Source: a virus
Length of the DNA: 40,467 bases
IMG/VR virus record: IMGVR_UViG_3300025909_000012
Span: 1-40,467 of that record
Strand: one strand, 5' to 3'
Of this stretch, positions 8,609 through 21,203 are shown piece after piece. The translations under genes and the position numbers were made by a program. The notes under the pieces are model-generated. The model saw nothing but the letters and a program-made list of their open reading frames with translations, had not been told where the DNA came from and ran no database searches. Position 1 is the stretch's first letter. Every line of letters begins with the position of its first letter.

Positions 8609-8847
8609 CCGACGGCGGCTGCGCAGCATCGTCGCGTCCGTTCGATCGTGACAGCGATCTGACCGACGCGTTCGCCGCGGGCGAGGCCGCGCAGTCCGCG
8701 CGCAACGCGGACTATCTCGACGCTTATGCCGCCAAGCTGGGGGAGCGCTACGACCCCGACACCGCTGGCACGCTCGAGGCGATCATCGCCGGCCTCGCGA
8801 CCACGATCCGCGCCGGCCTCGCCGATTCCGATGGAGACCCACAATGA
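8605..8847 (+). CDS. Hypothetical small acidic protein
   Basis: An 80-residue acidic protein of unknown function, with helical segments (DLTDAFAAGEAAQSARNAD and LEAIIAGLATTIRAGL). ATGA overlaps on both sides, the downstream one with the sliding-clamp gene, make co-translation likely. Confidence 0.65.
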   Translation: MTDGGCAASSRPFDRDSDLTDAFAAGEAAQSARNADYLDAYAAKLGERYDPDTAGTLEAIIAGLATTIRAGLADSDGDPQ

Positions 8848-10160
8848 CCGACGAACCGCTGGCGCCCGACGCCGACACCGCGCCCGAGGACAATGCCGAT
8901 ACGGTCGAGGTCGACGGCCCGGCCGACACCACGGCCGACGCGCCCAAGCCCAAGCGCGGTCGCAAGGCCGCCATCGATCTGCGCCCCGACCCGTGCGATG
9001 ATGGCAAGCCCCGCGTGATCTCGGTCGCCGCGGGCACGCTCAAGACGGCGCTGGCCGGGATCGGCGCGGTGATCGAGCGGCGCAACACCATCCCGATCCT
9101 GTCAAACCTGCGGATCGAGGCGGTGCACGGGCGGGCCTCGCTGACCGGCACCGACCTCGGCCTGCAATGCGTGCGGATGATCGATGTCGAGCAGGATGCC
9201 GACGCGCCGGCGTTCGCCACCACGGTCAACGAAGCCACGCTCGAGGCGATCGTCAAGAAGATCGACGCCGAGGCGCTGGTCACGCTGACCCTTACGCCCG
9301 GCAAGATGCTGGTCACCGCCGGCCGCGCGCGCTTCACCTTGCCGACGCTGCCGATCGAGGATTTCCCGATGATGGTCTCGGGCGGCGTCGATCACCAGTT
9401 CGAGATCGCCGCGTTCGACCTGGCCGCGCTGATCGATGGCGTGCGCTTCGCGATGTGCACCGAGGAAACGCGCTATTATCTCAACGGCATCTATCTCCAC
9501 GCGACCGAGGCGCGCGGCCCGACCGGCGACGGCGAGGGCGTGGTGCTGGTGCTGCGCGGGGTGGCGACCGACGGGCATCGGCTGGCGCGGTTCGACCTGC
9601 CCCAGCCCGACGGCGCCGGTGCATTGGATGGGGTGATCATCCCGCGCAAGGCGATCGGCGTGCTCGACAAGATGCTCGACGGGGTAGAGGGCCCGGTCGA
9701 CGTCGCGATCGGCACCGGCAAGGCGGTGTTCGATTTCGGCGAAGTGGTGCTGACCACCAAGCTGATCGACGGCACCTTCCCCGATTACACCCGGGTCATC
9801 CCCAGCGCGAACGACAATATCCTGCTGATCGACCCGAAGACGCTGGCGGCGGCGGTCGATCGCGCGATGGTGATGACCAGCGGCAAGGAACGCGGGATCC
9901 GCGCCGACCTGACGCGCGACCTGGTCACGATCAGCTGCCGGTCGCCCGAGATGGGCGAGGCGAGCGAGGAATCGCCGTGCGACCATGACGGCGCCGACCT
10001 GATTGTCGGGTTCAACGGCCAGTATCTGGCCGAGATGCTCGGCCGCATCCAGGGCGACACCGCGCGGTTCGAGCTGAGCGACGCGGCGGGCCCGGTGCTG
10101 ATCCGCGACGCCAACGACGAAGCGCGCGGGCTGTACGTCCTCATGCCGATGCGGGTGTGA
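8844..10160 (+). CDS. dnaN: Phage DNA polymerase III beta subunit (sliding clamp)
   Basis: A 438-residue homologue of the bacterial replication clamp, which encircles DNA and tethers polymerase. An acidic-basic N-terminal extension of about 50 residues (ending KPKRGRKAA) precedes the clamp fold. Clamp signatures include VIERRNTIPILSNLRIEA, LTGTDLGLQ, RFTLPTLPIEDFP, VATDGHRLARFDLP and the C-terminal YVLMPMRV. Typical DnaN is about 370 residues, so the extra length is the extension plus a loop near residues 218-232. It would let the phage control polymerase recruitment. It lies between early hypothetical genes and the cupin-like gene, with overlaps at both ends. Confidence 0.95.
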   Translation: MTDEPLAPDADTAPEDNADTVEVDGPADTTADAPKPKRGRKAAIDLRPDPCDDGKPRVISVAAGTLKTALAGIGAVIERRNTIPILSNLRIEAVHGRASLTGTDLGLQCVRMIDVEQDADAPAFATTVNEATLEAIVKKIDAEALVTLTLTPGKMLVTAGRARFTLPTLPIEDFPMMVSGGVDHQFEIAAFDLAALIDGVRFAMCTEETRYYLNGIYLHATEARGPTGDGEGVVLVLRGVATDGHRLARFDLPQPDGAGALDGVIIPRKAIGVLDKMLDGVEGPVDVAIGTGKAVFDFGEVVLTTKLIDGTFPDYTRVIPSANDNILLIDPKTLAAAVDRAMVMTSGKERGIRADLTRDLVTISCRSPEMGEASEESPCDHDGADLIVGFNGQYLAEMLGRIQGDTARFELSDAAGPVLIRDANDEARGLYVLMPMRV

Positions 10161-15653: not shown

Positions 15654-15719
15654 CGCCACCACACACGCATGCCGGCCACGCGGGGTGGCCGAATTCTCCG
15701 ATTTCAGGGGTGGGTTCTT

Positions 15720-16850
15720 TTGTCGCTATCGCCGCAATTTCTGGACGAGCTGCGCGCGCGGACGTCGCTGTCGGCGCTGGTCGGCGCCTCGGTCAAGCTG
15801 ACCAAGGCGGGGCGCGAGCACAAGGGGTGCTGCCCGTTCCACAATGAGAAGACCGCTTCCTTCTACGTCAACGACGACAAGGGCTTCTATCATTGCTTCG
15901 GCTGTTCGGCGCATGGCGACGCGATCCGCTGGCTGACCGAGCGCCAGGGGCTGGGGTTCATCGACGCGGTCAAGGACCTGGCCGATCGCGCCGGGCTCGA
16001 CGTGCCGGCGCCGTCGCCCGACTATCGCGAGCGCGAGGAACGGATCGAGCGGGCGGGTGGTGTGCTCGAGGCGGCGGCGGACTGGTATGCCAGGCGGCTG
16101 GCGAGCGAGCCGGCGGCGATCGCCATGCTCGCCGATCGCGGCGTCGGCGCGGCGGCGATCGCGCGGTTCGGGCTGGGGCTGGCGCCGCGGATGGGCGGCG
16201 TTGCGGCGACCGGGCGGACGGTCGACGAGCTCGCCGCGGTCGGGCTGTTGGTCGAGTCCGATAACGGCTGGGTCGATTTCTTTCGCCAGCGGCTGATGAT
16301 CCCGATCCACGATGCGCGCGGGCGGGTGATCGGGTTCGGCGGGCGCGCTACGTCCGACCGGCAGCAGGCGAAGTACAAGAATTCGGCCGAGGGGCCGCAT
16401 TTCGACAAGGGGCGGACGCTGTACAACCTGCACCGCGCGGCGCCGGCGGCGCGCGAGGCGCGGCGGCTGGTGATCGTCGAGGGCTATTTCGACGCGATCG
16501 CGCTCGACGGCGTCGGCGTGGCCGAGGTGGTGGCGCCGATGGGCACCGCGCTGACCGAGGCGCAGCTCGAGCGCGCGTGGCGGGTGTGCGAGTGCCCGGT
16601 GCTGCTGCTCGACGGCGACAAGGCCGGGCGCGGCGCCGCGCTGCGCGCGTGCGAGCGGGCGATGCCGATGCTGGGCACGACGATGGCGGGGGCGGGCGGC
16701 GGCGCCAGCCTGTCGGTCGCTTTGCTGCCCGACGGGATGGATCCCGACGACCTGGCGCGCGCCGAGGGGCGCGAAGGCGTGGAGCGCGTGCTGTCGGCCG
16801 CGATGCCGCTGAGCGATTTCGTGTTCGAGGCTGTGGTGGGGGTGGCGTGA
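15720..16850 (+). CDS. dnaG-like: DnaG-type primase, lacking C-terminal helicase-binding domain
   Basis: A 376-residue RNA primase. The CHC2 zinc finger has CPFH and HCFGC (Cys38, His41, Cys59, Cys62). The RNA-polymerase-like core and Toprim domain follow, with VIVEGYFDAIAL (near 250) and LLLDGDKAG (near 295). The TTG at 15720, preceded by GGGGTGGG, gives the N-terminus LSLSPQFLDELRARTSL that matches DnaG starts; an ATG at 15669 adds a non-conserved stretch. Bacterial DnaG is about 600 residues, so the DnaB-interaction domain is missing. The gene could come from a sphingomonad dnaG. It overlaps the cytosine methylase (GTGA). Confidence 0.92.
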   Translation: MSLSPQFLDELRARTSLSALVGASVKLTKAGREHKGCCPFHNEKTASFYVNDDKGFYHCFGCSAHGDAIRWLTERQGLGFIDAVKDLADRAGLDVPAPSPDYREREERIERAGGVLEAAADWYARRLASEPAAIAMLADRGVGAAAIARFGLGLAPRMGGVAATGRTVDELAAVGLLVESDNGWVDFFRQRLMIPIHDARGRVIGFGGRATSDRQQAKYKNSAEGPHFDKGRTLYNLHRAAPAAREARRLVIVEGYFDAIALDGVGVAEVVAPMGTALTEAQLERAWRVCECPVLLLDGDKAGRGAALRACERAMPMLGTTMAGAGGGASLSVALLPDGMDPDDLARAEGREGVERVLSAAMPLSDFVFEAVVGVA

Positions 16851-18118
16851 CCGAGGTCCGCTATCTCGACGTCTGCTCGGGCTATTCGGCGTTCACGCTG
16901 GCGAGCGCGGGGCTGGGCTTTCGCTGCGCCGGCTATTCCGAGATCGAGCCGTTCCCGCGCGCGATGCTGCAGCAGCGGCACCAGGCGGTCGCGGTCGATT
17001 GGGATCATCGCTTCGCCGAGGGATCGAACGTCACACCGCTGTTCGGCGACTTCACCAGGATCGAGGAACACCATGTCGGGCCAATTGACCTTCTTACCGG
17101 CGGCACCCCCTGCCAGGCCTTCAGCGTCGCGGGAAAGCGGCTCGGACTGGACGATCCGCGCGGCAACCTCACGCTCGAGTTCCTGGCGCTGGCTCGACGC
17201 GTTCGCGCCCGCTGGCTGCTTTGGGAGAACGTCCCCGGCTTCCTGTCGCACGATGGAGGGCGGACGGCTGGAACCTTCTTCGGGCTCCTGGGGGAGTGCG
17301 GGTATGGGTGGGCCTACCGGGTGCTTGACGCTCAATATGTCCGAGTGGACGGGCACGAGAGGGCCGTGCCCCAGCGACGGCGGCGTGTGTTCGTTGTGGC
17401 ATGTCTTGGAGACGAAGCCGGTCCCGCGGCGGTATTATTTGAGCCAGAAAGCCTGCGCGGGGATCCTGCGCCGCGCCGCGAAACGGGGGAAGGAATTGCC
17501 GGGTTTGCTCGCTCGAGCGCTCCATGCGGTTGCCCAAAGGACGACGGAAGCAGGGTGATCGCCACGCTCGATGCGAGCTATGGCAGATTGCAGGGTTGCA
17601 GCGGGCAGGACGCTAACCACGGGCATAGTCACTTGGTGGCTCATGCTTTACGTGCCGACGGCTTCGACGCTAGTGAGGACGGCACGGGCCGAGGCACGCC
17701 GATTGTGCCGGTCGACCTGCGCAACGCCGACTCGGGCGGGTGTGTCGCCGGCACCCTTGGCACCGAGCATTCCGTAAGCAACGGGCAGGCGGTCGCCTTC
17801 GCTCAGAACAGCCGTTCGGAAGTCCGTATTTTCGGCGATGATGGCCAAACCGTTGGCGCTCTCGCGGCTGATGTCGGCGCGCAGCAGCAATGCTACATCG
17901 CCGACGCCTGGGCGGTGCGCCGCCTGACCCCGACCGAGTGCGAGCGGCTGATGGGCGTGCCGGACGGATTCACCGCGATCGCGTGGCGCGGCAAGCCGGC
18001 GGCCGACGGGCCGCGCTACAAGGTGCTGGGCAATAGCCAGTCGATCAACCAGATGCGCTGGATCGCGCGCGGGCTGGCCGACGTGATCGCCGCGCGGCGC
18101 CAGGCGGGGATGGAATGA
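16847..18118 (+). CDS. dcm-like: C5-cytosine DNA methyltransferase
   Basis: A 423-residue SAM-dependent enzyme that methylates cytosine at C5. Motif I is LDVCSGYSAFTLA, motif IV GGTPCQAFS with the catalytic Cys, motif VI ENVPGF, motif VIII QRRRRVFVVA, and motifs IX-X are RLTPTECERLMGVPDGF and YKVLGNSQ. A long variable stretch between VIII and IX (about residues 190-355) holds the target-recognition domain. It starts with GTG overlapping the primase stop and ends overlapping the helicase gene. No restriction partner is near, so it is probably an orphan phage enzyme. Confidence 0.95.
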   Translation: MTEVRYLDVCSGYSAFTLASAGLGFRCAGYSEIEPFPRAMLQQRHQAVAVDWDHRFAEGSNVTPLFGDFTRIEEHHVGPIDLLTGGTPCQAFSVAGKRLGLDDPRGNLTLEFLALARRVRARWLLWENVPGFLSHDGGRTAGTFFGLLGECGYGWAYRVLDAQYVRVDGHERAVPQRRRRVFVVACLGDEAGPAAVLFEPESLRGDPAPRRETGEGIAGFARSSAPCGCPKDDGSRVIATLDASYGRLQGCSGQDANHGHSHLVAHALRADGFDASEDGTGRGTPIVPVDLRNADSGGCVAGTLGTEHSVSNGQAVAFAQNSRSEVRIFGDDGQTVGALAADVGAQQQCYIADAWAVRRLTPTECERLMGVPDGFTAIAWRGKPAADGPRYKVLGNSQSINQMRWIARGLADVIAARRQAGME

Positions 18119-20247
18119 CCCCCCGCACCCCCGAAGCGCGGGCGGCGCTGTGGAAGCGGCTGGCGGCGATGGCCGGCGCGATCCGCGACGACGAGACGCG
18201 CGCGCAATATGTCGCGTCGTGGCGCGCGCGCTACGACCTCGCCTTTCCCCCGCCACCCCCGGGGCTGAGCGATGACGACATGCTTCCGAATGGAAGCATC
18301 GGGCCTTCCCTGTCCGATCAGGGGGCGGGGGTGCAGGCGGTGCTGCGGCGCGTCCACGGGCTGTGGCTCGATCGCGAGCGGTCGCGCGATGCGGTGTCGG
18401 ACAAGCAGGCCAACGGCTTCGCCTTCGCGCTGGGGAGGCGGATGCGGGCCGGGCTGATCGATTATGTCGAGGGCGAGGAAGCATTCGCCGACTTCGGGGA
18501 CGCGTTCGACCTGACCGCGATGCGCAAATCGTTCTGGGCGGGCGTGCGCAAGGGGTACGACCTGACCGGCGATTTGGCGACGCATCGCTGCGCCGGCTTC
18601 CAGCGCACCGACCTGGGCAATGCCGAGCGGTTCCGCGAGCGGTTCGGGCGCGATTTCCTCTATACCACGGCCAAGGGCTGGCTCGGCTATGACGGGCGCC
18701 GCTATCGCGTGCTGGTGCAGGAAAAGGACGCGACGCCGGCCGAGGTGCTGGGCGCGGTGTTCGAGACGGTGCGCGCGATCCAGGACGAGGCGCAGCTGGT
18801 CGCGGCGAGCGGCTTTTCGACCGACGGTCTGGTGATGGGCGACGAGGCGTGGGCGAACTTCGTCGCGGTGCACAAGCTGCGCCGCGATCATGTCGATGCC
18901 GAGGGCGCGATGGATCGCGCGGTCGTCGCGGGGAGCAAGACTGAGCCGCTGTCGAAGAAACTCGGCGCGTGGGGGCGATCGTCGGAAAGCTCGGGCCGGC
19001 TGGGGTGCATCGCCAACCTCGCCAAGCGCTGGCTGACGGTCGAGATCACCGATTTCGACACCGACCCGATGCTGCTCAATTGCCATAACGGCACGCTGCG
19101 CTTCATCCCGCCCGACGATGACGGGCCGGCGCGGGTCGAGCTGATGCCGCACGATCGCGCGCATCTGCTGACCAAGCTGACGTCGTGCGATTACGATCCC
19201 GACGCCAAGGCGGACGAGTGGCAGGCGCTGATCCGATGGGCCCAGCCGAAACGCGAGCGGCGCCGCTATCTGCGCCAGTGGCTCGGCTATTGCCTGACCG
19301 GCGACATGGGCGAACAGATCTTCCATATCTGGTGGGGCCCGACCGCGGCCAACGGCAAGTCGACCGTGGGCAATGCGGCGCGCGACGCCGCGGGCGATTA
19401 TGGTGAGATCACCAATGTCGAGACGTTCCTCGACGAAGGGATCAAGAAGCGCGGCGACCAAGCGACGCCTGACATCGTGCGCCTGCCCGGGGTGCGCTTC
19501 CTGACCAGCGGCGAGCCGGGGGCGGGGTCGAAGTTCAACGAACCGCTGATCAACAGCGTGACGGGCGGCGACCCGATGCTGGCGCGCGACAATTTCCGGT
19601 CGTTCTTCCGCTTCACGCCCAGCTTCAAGTGGACGATTTGGTGCAACAAGAAACCCGATATCGTCCAGGGGACCGAGGGCATCTGGCGGCGCGCCAAGGT
19701 GCTGTTGTGGGAATCGCACCTCGAGGAACACCAAAAGGATCGCGGGCTGCCGACGCGGCTGGCGGGCGAGCATGCCGGCATCCTGGCATGGATGGTGCGC
19801 GGGGTGGTCGACTGGATGCAGAACGGCTTCGTCGAGCCCGACGACGTCACCATCCAGTCGCTGGCCTATCGCGACGACAGCGACCCGCTGGCGAGCTTCC
19901 TGCGGCTGTGCACGGCCGAGGAAGAGGGCGCGCGGGTGCAATCCTCGGTGCTCTACAAGGTGTTCTGCGCCTGGGCCAAGGCCGCCGGCGAACTCGAATG
20001 GAAACAGAAGGGCTTCAGCCGCGCGATGAAGGATCGCGGGTTCGACAACAAGCAGTCGAACGGGATGCAATGGCTGGGGCTGCGGCTGACCCGGAACGAA
20101 TGGGACTTCGTCGACGACAAGGGCGAGGTGCGCACCGACATCGACCTGGCGATCGATCGCAACGCCGCGCCCGATGGCGGTGTCGATGACGCGCGTCCGC
20201 CGCCCGGCGACCCCGGCTGGCCGCCGTTCGACGACGGGCCACTTTGA
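18115..20247 (+). CDS. D5/P4-type phage primase-helicase (SF3)
   Basis: A 710-residue replication protein. The central D5_N-type region (AKGWLGYDGRRYRVL, near 184) leads into an SF3 helicase with Walker A GPTAANGKST (residues about 408-417), a Walker B-type segment around PGVRFLTSGEP, and the sensor FKWTIWCNKKP. The C-terminal winged helix is near 615-665 (LYKVFCAWAKAAGE). It unwinds DNA and may synthesise primers, as P4 alpha does. The N-terminal primase part is not clearly recognisable, which fits the presence of a separate DnaG-type primase. It is followed by the iteron region, the likely target of initiation. Confidence 0.93.
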   Translation: MTPRTPEARAALWKRLAAMAGAIRDDETRAQYVASWRARYDLAFPPPPPGLSDDDMLPNGSIGPSLSDQGAGVQAVLRRVHGLWLDRERSRDAVSDKQANGFAFALGRRMRAGLIDYVEGEEAFADFGDAFDLTAMRKSFWAGVRKGYDLTGDLATHRCAGFQRTDLGNAERFRERFGRDFLYTTAKGWLGYDGRRYRVLVQEKDATPAEVLGAVFETVRAIQDEAQLVAASGFSTDGLVMGDEAWANFVAVHKLRRDHVDAEGAMDRAVVAGSKTEPLSKKLGAWGRSSESSGRLGCIANLAKRWLTVEITDFDTDPMLLNCHNGTLRFIPPDDDGPARVELMPHDRAHLLTKLTSCDYDPDAKADEWQALIRWAQPKRERRRYLRQWLGYCLTGDMGEQIFHIWWGPTAANGKSTVGNAARDAAGDYGEITNVETFLDEGIKKRGDQATPDIVRLPGVRFLTSGEPGAGSKFNEPLINSVTGGDPMLARDNFRSFFRFTPSFKWTIWCNKKPDIVQGTEGIWRRAKVLLWESHLEEHQKDRGLPTRLAGEHAGILAWMVRGVVDWMQNGFVEPDDVTIQSLAYRDDSDPLASFLRLCTAEEEGARVQSSVLYKVFCAWAKAAGELEWKQKGFSRAMKDRGFDNKQSNGMQWLGLRLTRNEWDFVDDKGEVRTDIDLAIDRNAAPDGGVDDARPPPGDPGWPPFDDGPL

Positions 20248-20254
20248 ATTTGAT

Positions 20255-20509
20255 CCTTCCACTTTGGAAGGGACGCGGAACCATCGCGGAAGGGAGAAAG
20301 CGCGAATTTGTGCGGGTTTGGAAGGGTTGGAAGGTTTCTTGAAACTCCATGACAGGTGCGGGCGCGGGCAGGTGCGCATGCACAAGACAGGAAAACCCTT
20401 CCAATCCTTCCAATGGTTCCATGTGAGAAAATATAAACACTATTTCCAATGATTTAACTTGGCCGATTGGCTGGAAGGATTGAGCGATGACGGTTCCACC
20501 GATGGAAGG
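20255..20509. repeat. TGGAAGG iteron array, candidate replication origin
   Basis: Eight copies of TGGAAGG or its complement lie at 20255-20261 (inv), 20265-20271, 20319-20325, 20328-20334, 20397-20403 (inv), 20406-20412 (inv), 20472-20478 and 20503-20509. Pairs at 20319/20328 and 20397/20406 have 9-bp spacing and face each other; the first two form the palindrome CCTTCCACTTTGGAAGG. An AT-rich stretch (20424-20460) lies within. Placement right after the SF3 helicase resembles P4-type origins. Confidence 0.7.
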
Positions 20510-21203
20510 GAGCGACGATCGCATCGTGCGGCCAATGTCGCCTGCACGTGGCGTGGTGGTGCGGCGTCCGCGTGGCGGGGGTCTGCCGGTGCGGCACCAG
20601 GGTGCGCCTGCCGCTCGGCCATGGGAAGCGACGGGGTCGATGGACGTCGAGGCGCTGGCGGTGTGGGCGTATCGGGATCAGCGGGTGGATCGCTCGGGGA
20701 TGGGTGGTCTCTATGCGGTCGAGGCCGAGGCGATGGGCTATGAGCCGCGCGGTCGGTCGAGCGATGGCTGTGCGGTGCTCGCCGACATCGCGCACATGGG
20801 ATGCCGGGTGCAGGGATCGGGCGTGATCGTCCGCGACTGCGTCCATCCCGTGGCCGAGGCGGTCGCGCATGCGGTCGAGGGTCTGCCGGGAGGGGCGCTG
20901 GTGCGGCACTATGCCCGGCAGGCTGGCCGCCCCGATGGCTGGGCGGCCGAGCAACGCCACGTGCCGATCGGGTGGCTGCGGCCCGGCGAGGCGCATTGGG
21001 AAACCGCCGACGATGGTCGCGCGCGCTACTGCCCGATCATCACGATCGGATCGTTCGCCGAGGTGGCGCGCGCGCGGGTCGACTATGCCAAGTGGTGGGA
21101 GGCGCTCGACGCGCTGGCGTGGCAGCTGTCGATGCGCGCGCTCGGCTTCGTCGTGCTGCGCCCATCGGCACCGCGCCAGCCTTGGGCCGAGGTGGCGGCG
21201 TGA
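20487..21203 (+). CDS. Hypothetical protein after candidate origin
   Basis: A 238-residue protein of unknown function. The first 50 residues are basic and low in structure (VVVRRPRGGGLP). The rest is folded, with VWAYRDQRVDR, RHVPIGWLRPGEAHW and DYAKWWEALDALAWQLSM as the most distinctive parts. No catalytic motif is recognised. Its first codons lie inside the iteron array. It precedes the small-terminase gene, so a packaging or late-control role is possible but unsupported. Ends in a GTGA overlap. Confidence 0.75.
   Translation: MTVPPMEGSDDRIVRPMSPARGVVVRRPRGGGLPVRHQGAPAARPWEATGSMDVEALAVWAYRDQRVDRSGMGGLYAVEAEAMGYEPRGRSSDGCAVLADIAHMGCRVQGSGVIVRDCVHPVAEAVAHAVEGLPGGALVRHYARQAGRPDGWAAEQRHVPIGWLRPGEAHWETADDGRARYCPIITIGSFAEVARARVDYAKWWEALDALAWQLSMRALGFVVLRPSAPRQPWAEVAA

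Follow-up and report, generated by a model that had tools for sequence, protein, structure and literature searches.

An iteron array directly downstream of a D5-family helicase gene as a likely replication origin in alphaproteobacterial temperate phages

What is the function of eight TGGAAGG copies packed into 255 bp behind the helicase gene of a phage? They could form a replication origin, a packaging site or an operator. We examined this computationally in a viral contig of 40,467 bp (the window) and, overall, in about 150 relatives. The window encodes a serine integrase, a DnaN-like clamp, a DnaG-like primase, a C5 methyltransferase, a D5/SF3 helicase, TerS and a GpA-type TerL. The phage-encoded DnaN-like sliding clamp lies at 8844-10160, and a beta-clamp gene is annotated in AmM-1 as well. 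In the segment 15669-18118, the C5-cytosine methyltransferase gene is located between the primase gene (15669-16850) and the helicase.

The array and the preceding helicase

All eight TGGAAGG elements of the original prediction were confirmed, at 20255(-), 20265(+), 20319(+), 20328(+), 20397(-), 20406(-), 20472(+) and 20503(+) (Table 1). As it had claimed, the tandem pairs are spaced 9 bp start to start and face each other across 62 bases (exact gap 20335-20396), and the pair at 20255/20265 is palindromic (CCTTCCA-CTT-TGGAAGG). Its placement of the array, right after the SF3 helicase and running into the next gene, was also correct. The helicase stop codon ends at 20247, the array starts 8 bp on, and the last copy forms codons 6-8 of ORF 20487-21203 (MTVPPMEGS). 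The iteron at 20472 doubles as a Shine-Dalgarno-like site of this gene (20472-20486). The predicted AT-rich tract was found, but not between the facing pairs. The 40-mer from 20421, with 31/40 AT the most AT-rich of the whole window, lies inside the array, past the reverse pair and before the outer forward pair. The inner facing iteron sets flank a spacer of 44% AT instead.

Table 1 Features of the helicase gene, the array and the following gene. Positions are those of the window; AF2, AlphaFold2.
Feature	Position	Strand	Support or remark
D5-family SF3 helicase, 710 aa, proposed origin-binding initiator	18115..20247	+	Pfam, phrog, AF2
Winged-helix codons (residues about 605-658)	19927..20088	+	AF2 secondary structure
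Wing residues Q647-S648-N649-G650	20053-20064	+	Covariation with motif
Outer palindromic iteron pair CCTTCCA-CTT-TGGAAGG	20255..20271	.	Equivalent position in several relatives
Hairpin-like element AAAGCGCGAATTTGTGCGGG, conserved	20289..20318	+	AAAGCGCGGATTTCTGCGC in relatives; most TGGAAGG/CGGAAGG-class relatives
Forward tandem iterons TGGAAGG-GT-TGGAAGG	20319..20334	+	9-bp period
62-bp spacer between facing tandems	20335..20396	.	Alternating purine-pyrimidine stretch in relatives
Reverse tandem iterons CCTTCCA-AT-CCTTCCA	20397..20412	-	
AT-rich tract, candidate DNA-unwinding element	20413..20471	.	Relatives AT-rich at equivalent place
Two outer forward iterons	20472..20509	+	Both found in relatives too
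Next gene, phrog_9306	20487..21203	+	Outside origin apart from first codons

The cluster exceeds chance expectation. TGGAAGG occurs 12 times in the whole window, as compared with 2.8 expected copies, and none of 100 shuffles reached 12. At the array, one 7-mer is found eight times within 255 bp. The maximum elsewhere in the window was five, and 60 second-order Markov simulations of the whole window gave maxima of 4-6 copies of any 7-mer per 255 bp. The GC skew, proposed earlier as a check, had no clear inflection at the array. A search for DnaA boxes within the array gave just one site, with two mismatches. A DNA similarity search of the array against phage records returned no relevant match. 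In the literature, the letters TGGAAGG occur in papers, none of them concerning origins, and our search found no description of the motif.

The helicase was recognized by its Pfam matches (D5_N, 8.8e-17; Pox_D5, 2.4e-4) and by phrog_1156 (1.6e-104). A profile search matched D5-type helicases and PDB 7ola/7om0, which we take to be a SaPI Rep. The AlphaFold2 model had a pLDDT of 87. A Foldseek search with the entire helicase gave, for the most part, one other D5-like viral primase-helicase and served as fold support only. At the C-terminus, the model has a confident winged helix (helices 610-624 and 631-640, strands 645-647 and 651-658), with residues 647-650 at the hairpin, or wing, that follows the recognition helix. 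A location of residue 647 in the recognition helix itself was rejected, because the model places it at the wing. Among PDB structures, the fold of the C-terminal domain was matched best (AlphaFold2 plus Foldseek) by the RFX1 DNA-binding domain on DNA (1dp7, E 3e-3), a winged helix of a eukaryotic transcription factor, the likeness being at the fold level only. The RFX1 domain reads DNA with its wing.

Arrays and helicase genes in relatives

An exact-pattern DNA scan of IMG/VR for two TTGGAAGG in tandem found at least 119 viral contigs. Among the matches listed, the clustered motif directly followed an ORF for a D5-type helicase, on its 3' side, in dozens of contigs. In the reverse search, which used the helicase protein alone, 179 distinct loci were found, and the 450 bp after the gene were examined. 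At least five copies of some 7-mer were present at 69% of these loci, compared with 1.7% of control windows, and at least six copies of one 7-mer at 53%, compared with 0.35% of controls. In many phages and prophages of Alphaproteobacteria, related arrays directly follow the 3' end of a D5/SF3 helicase gene, and the relatives in bacterial genomes were mostly from Sphingomonadales and Hyphomicrobiales. In whole bacterial genomes with the TGGAAGG class, the tandem pattern was confined to the array.

Some relatives, for example RcRhea, were without an array. One locus, L127, was rejected as an array-less case, because an ORF is inserted after the helicase gene and the array, with the motif TTGGGAAG, follows 380 bp further downstream. 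The inserted ORF (L127:7989-8369, 126 aa) resembles a stand-alone copy of the helicase winged helix. In the relatives L014, L027 and L031 a CHC2-TOPRIM primase and the helicase are fused in one ORF, and in L012, L016 and L034 there is a different N-terminal part, resembling prim-pol.

The layout of the arrays was kept, with forward tandems, a spacer, reverse tandems (9-bp period) and then AT-rich DNA. The facing gap had a median of 73 bp (IQR 67.5-81). At 63 loci, the longest alternating purine-pyrimidine run in the spacer averaged 15.8 nt, compared with 6.5 nt in controls. The cultured phages RcapNL, AmM-1 and Pthi1 have an equivalent layout with unrelated letters, and Microcystis phage Mae-JY28 has an equivalent layout with TGGAAGG. 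Directly before the forward tandem, most TGGAAGG/CGGAAGG loci carry a hairpin-like GCGCGGATTTCTGCGC element.

The overlap of the copies with the start region of gene 20487 would suit an operator, with which a phage regulator, or the helicase as an autorepressor, controls the next genes. However, the arrays of several relatives end before any next gene, or are followed by a different one, while the adjacency to the helicase stays. A separate regulator would also leave the large facing-set layout and the covariation with the helicase wing (see below) unexplained. We therefore consider an operator extremely unlikely. Autoregulation by the helicase could coexist with an origin role.

Alternatively, the array could be a packaging site (cos/cosB) recognized by the small subunit of the terminase, as TerS starts about 800 bp downstream. 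In RcapNL, the annotated cohesive end lies about 35 bp past the reverse iterons, within the AT tract, and a copy of its GCGTCCC motif lies on the other side of this end. This annotation is uncertain, because the ends of RcapNL are listed as circularly permuted (PMC8601537). In our data, the array did not track the terminase genes. Arrays and both main motif classes were found beside two unrelated TerL families (PF03354/PF20441, 56 loci; GpA, 38 loci). The AmM-1 array lies at the helicase end, at about 44.3-44.6 kb, and TerL at 588, separated by three genes and more than 3 kb across the ends of the record. Because of these two observations a pure packaging site is disfavoured, and we regard it as very unlikely. 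Double use, in which the helicase would read the origin iterons and the AT tract (20413-20471) would also serve as the cos cleavage site, is suggested by the RcapNL layout, in which the cos annotation falls in the corresponding AT tract, and a cos would be well placed on the map where the early genes give way to the late ones. However, RcapNL is one uncertain precedent, and array and terminase are separated in AmM-1, which makes double use improbable.

Motif classes and the helicase wing

The motif classes TGGAAGG/CGGAAGG (GA), TGGGAGG/CGGGAGG (GG) and TGCAAGG each fill whole arrays, so that the layout is kept and the letters switch in concert. For example, the array of L129 (helicase identity 64%) is all TGGGAGG. 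A tree calculated without the winged-helix columns required at least seven motif-class changes.

Across 693 aligned helicase columns, the class information was highest at Q647 and second highest at G650. When whole 65%-identity clusters were left out, column 647 predicted the motif class with a balanced accuracy of 0.93; the next of 475 columns reached 0.67, and the median was 0.35. TGGGAGG/CGGGAGG arrays went with K647 or a residue other than G at 650 in 22/22 cases, and such wings were found in 0/74 GA-class rows. E647 was present in 3/3 cases with TGCAAGG and in 0/96 others. The first base was more often C with D649 (mean 0.60) than with N649 (0.23). The displaced array of L127, whose helicase has K647, again has G at base 4.

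New loci with training-type wings were predicted correctly in 14 of 15 cases, among them five loci with K647 and 43-52% identity. The single miss was L312, which combines N647 with TGCAAGG. Over all out-of-sample loci, the simple wing rule missed 17 of 31, namely L312 and 16 loci that belong to a single divergent rhizobial clade, in which the wing is quite different and the motif is of a fourth class, TGCGAGG. The rule is therefore local to the training clade, and a genome-wide "K or non-G650" rule was rejected because it fails outside of it. The rhizobial prophages L403-L422 have an R-x-R-I/V type wing and TGCGAGG arrays, and at other loci clusters of ACTGTCG, CCCTACA or AGGGAGG were seen. 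More widely, the type of wing and the type of iteron are associated in these data, which consist of related sequences. Tree-independent pairs for GG/GA were few (four supported, all concordant, p 0.125), so phylogeny may explain part of the covariation.

A few amino acids of the helicase thus appear, from sequence covariation, to read the letters of the repeat. That the motif follows the helicase wing also argues against the packaging site. Within one terminase family, TerL columns predicted GA/GG as well as helicase columns did, which would fit packaging, but this test is not discriminating.

Comparison with known origins and proposed mechanism

The D5_N-type Cch2 and SaPI Rep use their C-terminal domains to bind iterons that directly follow their genes (PMC7581432), and PICI origins immediately 3' of the helicase gene sustain plasmid maintenance (PMC6092414). 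Both traits, a D5/SF3 helicase gene and iterons directly 3' of it, were found here. The PICI/SaPI Rep-ori systems (SaPI5 Rep, EcCICFT073 and others) share with the window an SF3-type initiator helicase with iterons immediately 3'; in them, recognition is by the C-terminal domain and the iteron sets lie around an AT-rich region (PMC7581432, PMC6092414). In contrast to these elements, the present arrays belong to complete tailed phages of Alphaproteobacteria, their iteron letters differ, and a spacer of alternating purines and pyrimidines is enclosed by facing tandems of 9-bp period, with the AT tract beside it. SCCmec Cch2 likewise belongs to the D5_N-family helicases, and its C-terminal domain, when isolated, binds direct repeats that lie just past the operon (PMC7581432). 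Its putative origin has three AAGTG-type iterons, whereas here there are 5-12 per array, in facing sets.

The original prediction of a P4-type origin was borne out for the protein, but for the DNA only in part. The P4 alpha protein also combines a primase and an SF3 helicase with a C-terminal winged-helix origin-binding domain, and this domain (1ka8) was a weak structural match to the C-terminal domain of our helicase. Unlike in P4, the primase of the window is a separate gene and the motif is different; the P4 iteron is GGTGAACAG, compared with TGGAAGG by eye only. P4 requires two separate cis regions, ori1 and crr. A distant crr-like region with the same repeats was searched for, and no other cluster was present in the window. 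With its position directly 3' of the helicase gene, the proposed origin resembles the arrangement of SaPI/PICI Rep and of SCCmec Cch2 more than that of P4 (PMC7581432, PMC6092414).

A likely replication origin, as originally predicted, is the best-supported reading, with the array tracking the helicase gene across many lineages and its letters covarying with wing residues. Based on this covariation and on the analogy to Cch2, SaPI Rep and PICI, the array is most likely a helicase-bound origin. We put the probability at roughly 0.84 that it is the replication origin of the phage and that its own helicase binds the TGGAAGG iterons through the C-terminal winged helix, with the wing doing most of the reading.

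For replication at such an origin, we infer the following course. The winged helix of the D5/SF3 helicase would bind TGGAAGG, with Q647, N649 and G650 of the wing reading bases. Two hexamers of the helicase would be placed by the two facing tandem sets and loaded as a double hexamer, and the DNA would melt at the AT-rich tract on the right side of the tandems. The DnaG-like primase of the phage and the host replisome would then begin synthesis.

Helicase-linked iteron origins are a known kind, and the evidence supports the present arrays as a variant with a testable specificity code. More tentatively, one to three wing residues might set many replication-specificity groups. Single substitutions, together with a concerted change of the iterons, would then create mutually orthogonal origins, possibly escaping replication interference by satellites or co-resident prophages. 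For a widespread and unstudied group of alphaproteobacterial temperate phages, our results provide a likely origin, a candidate initiator and a residue-to-base hypothesis. The natural motif switches make origin specificity approachable by single-residue swaps, which could yield orthogonal replicons.
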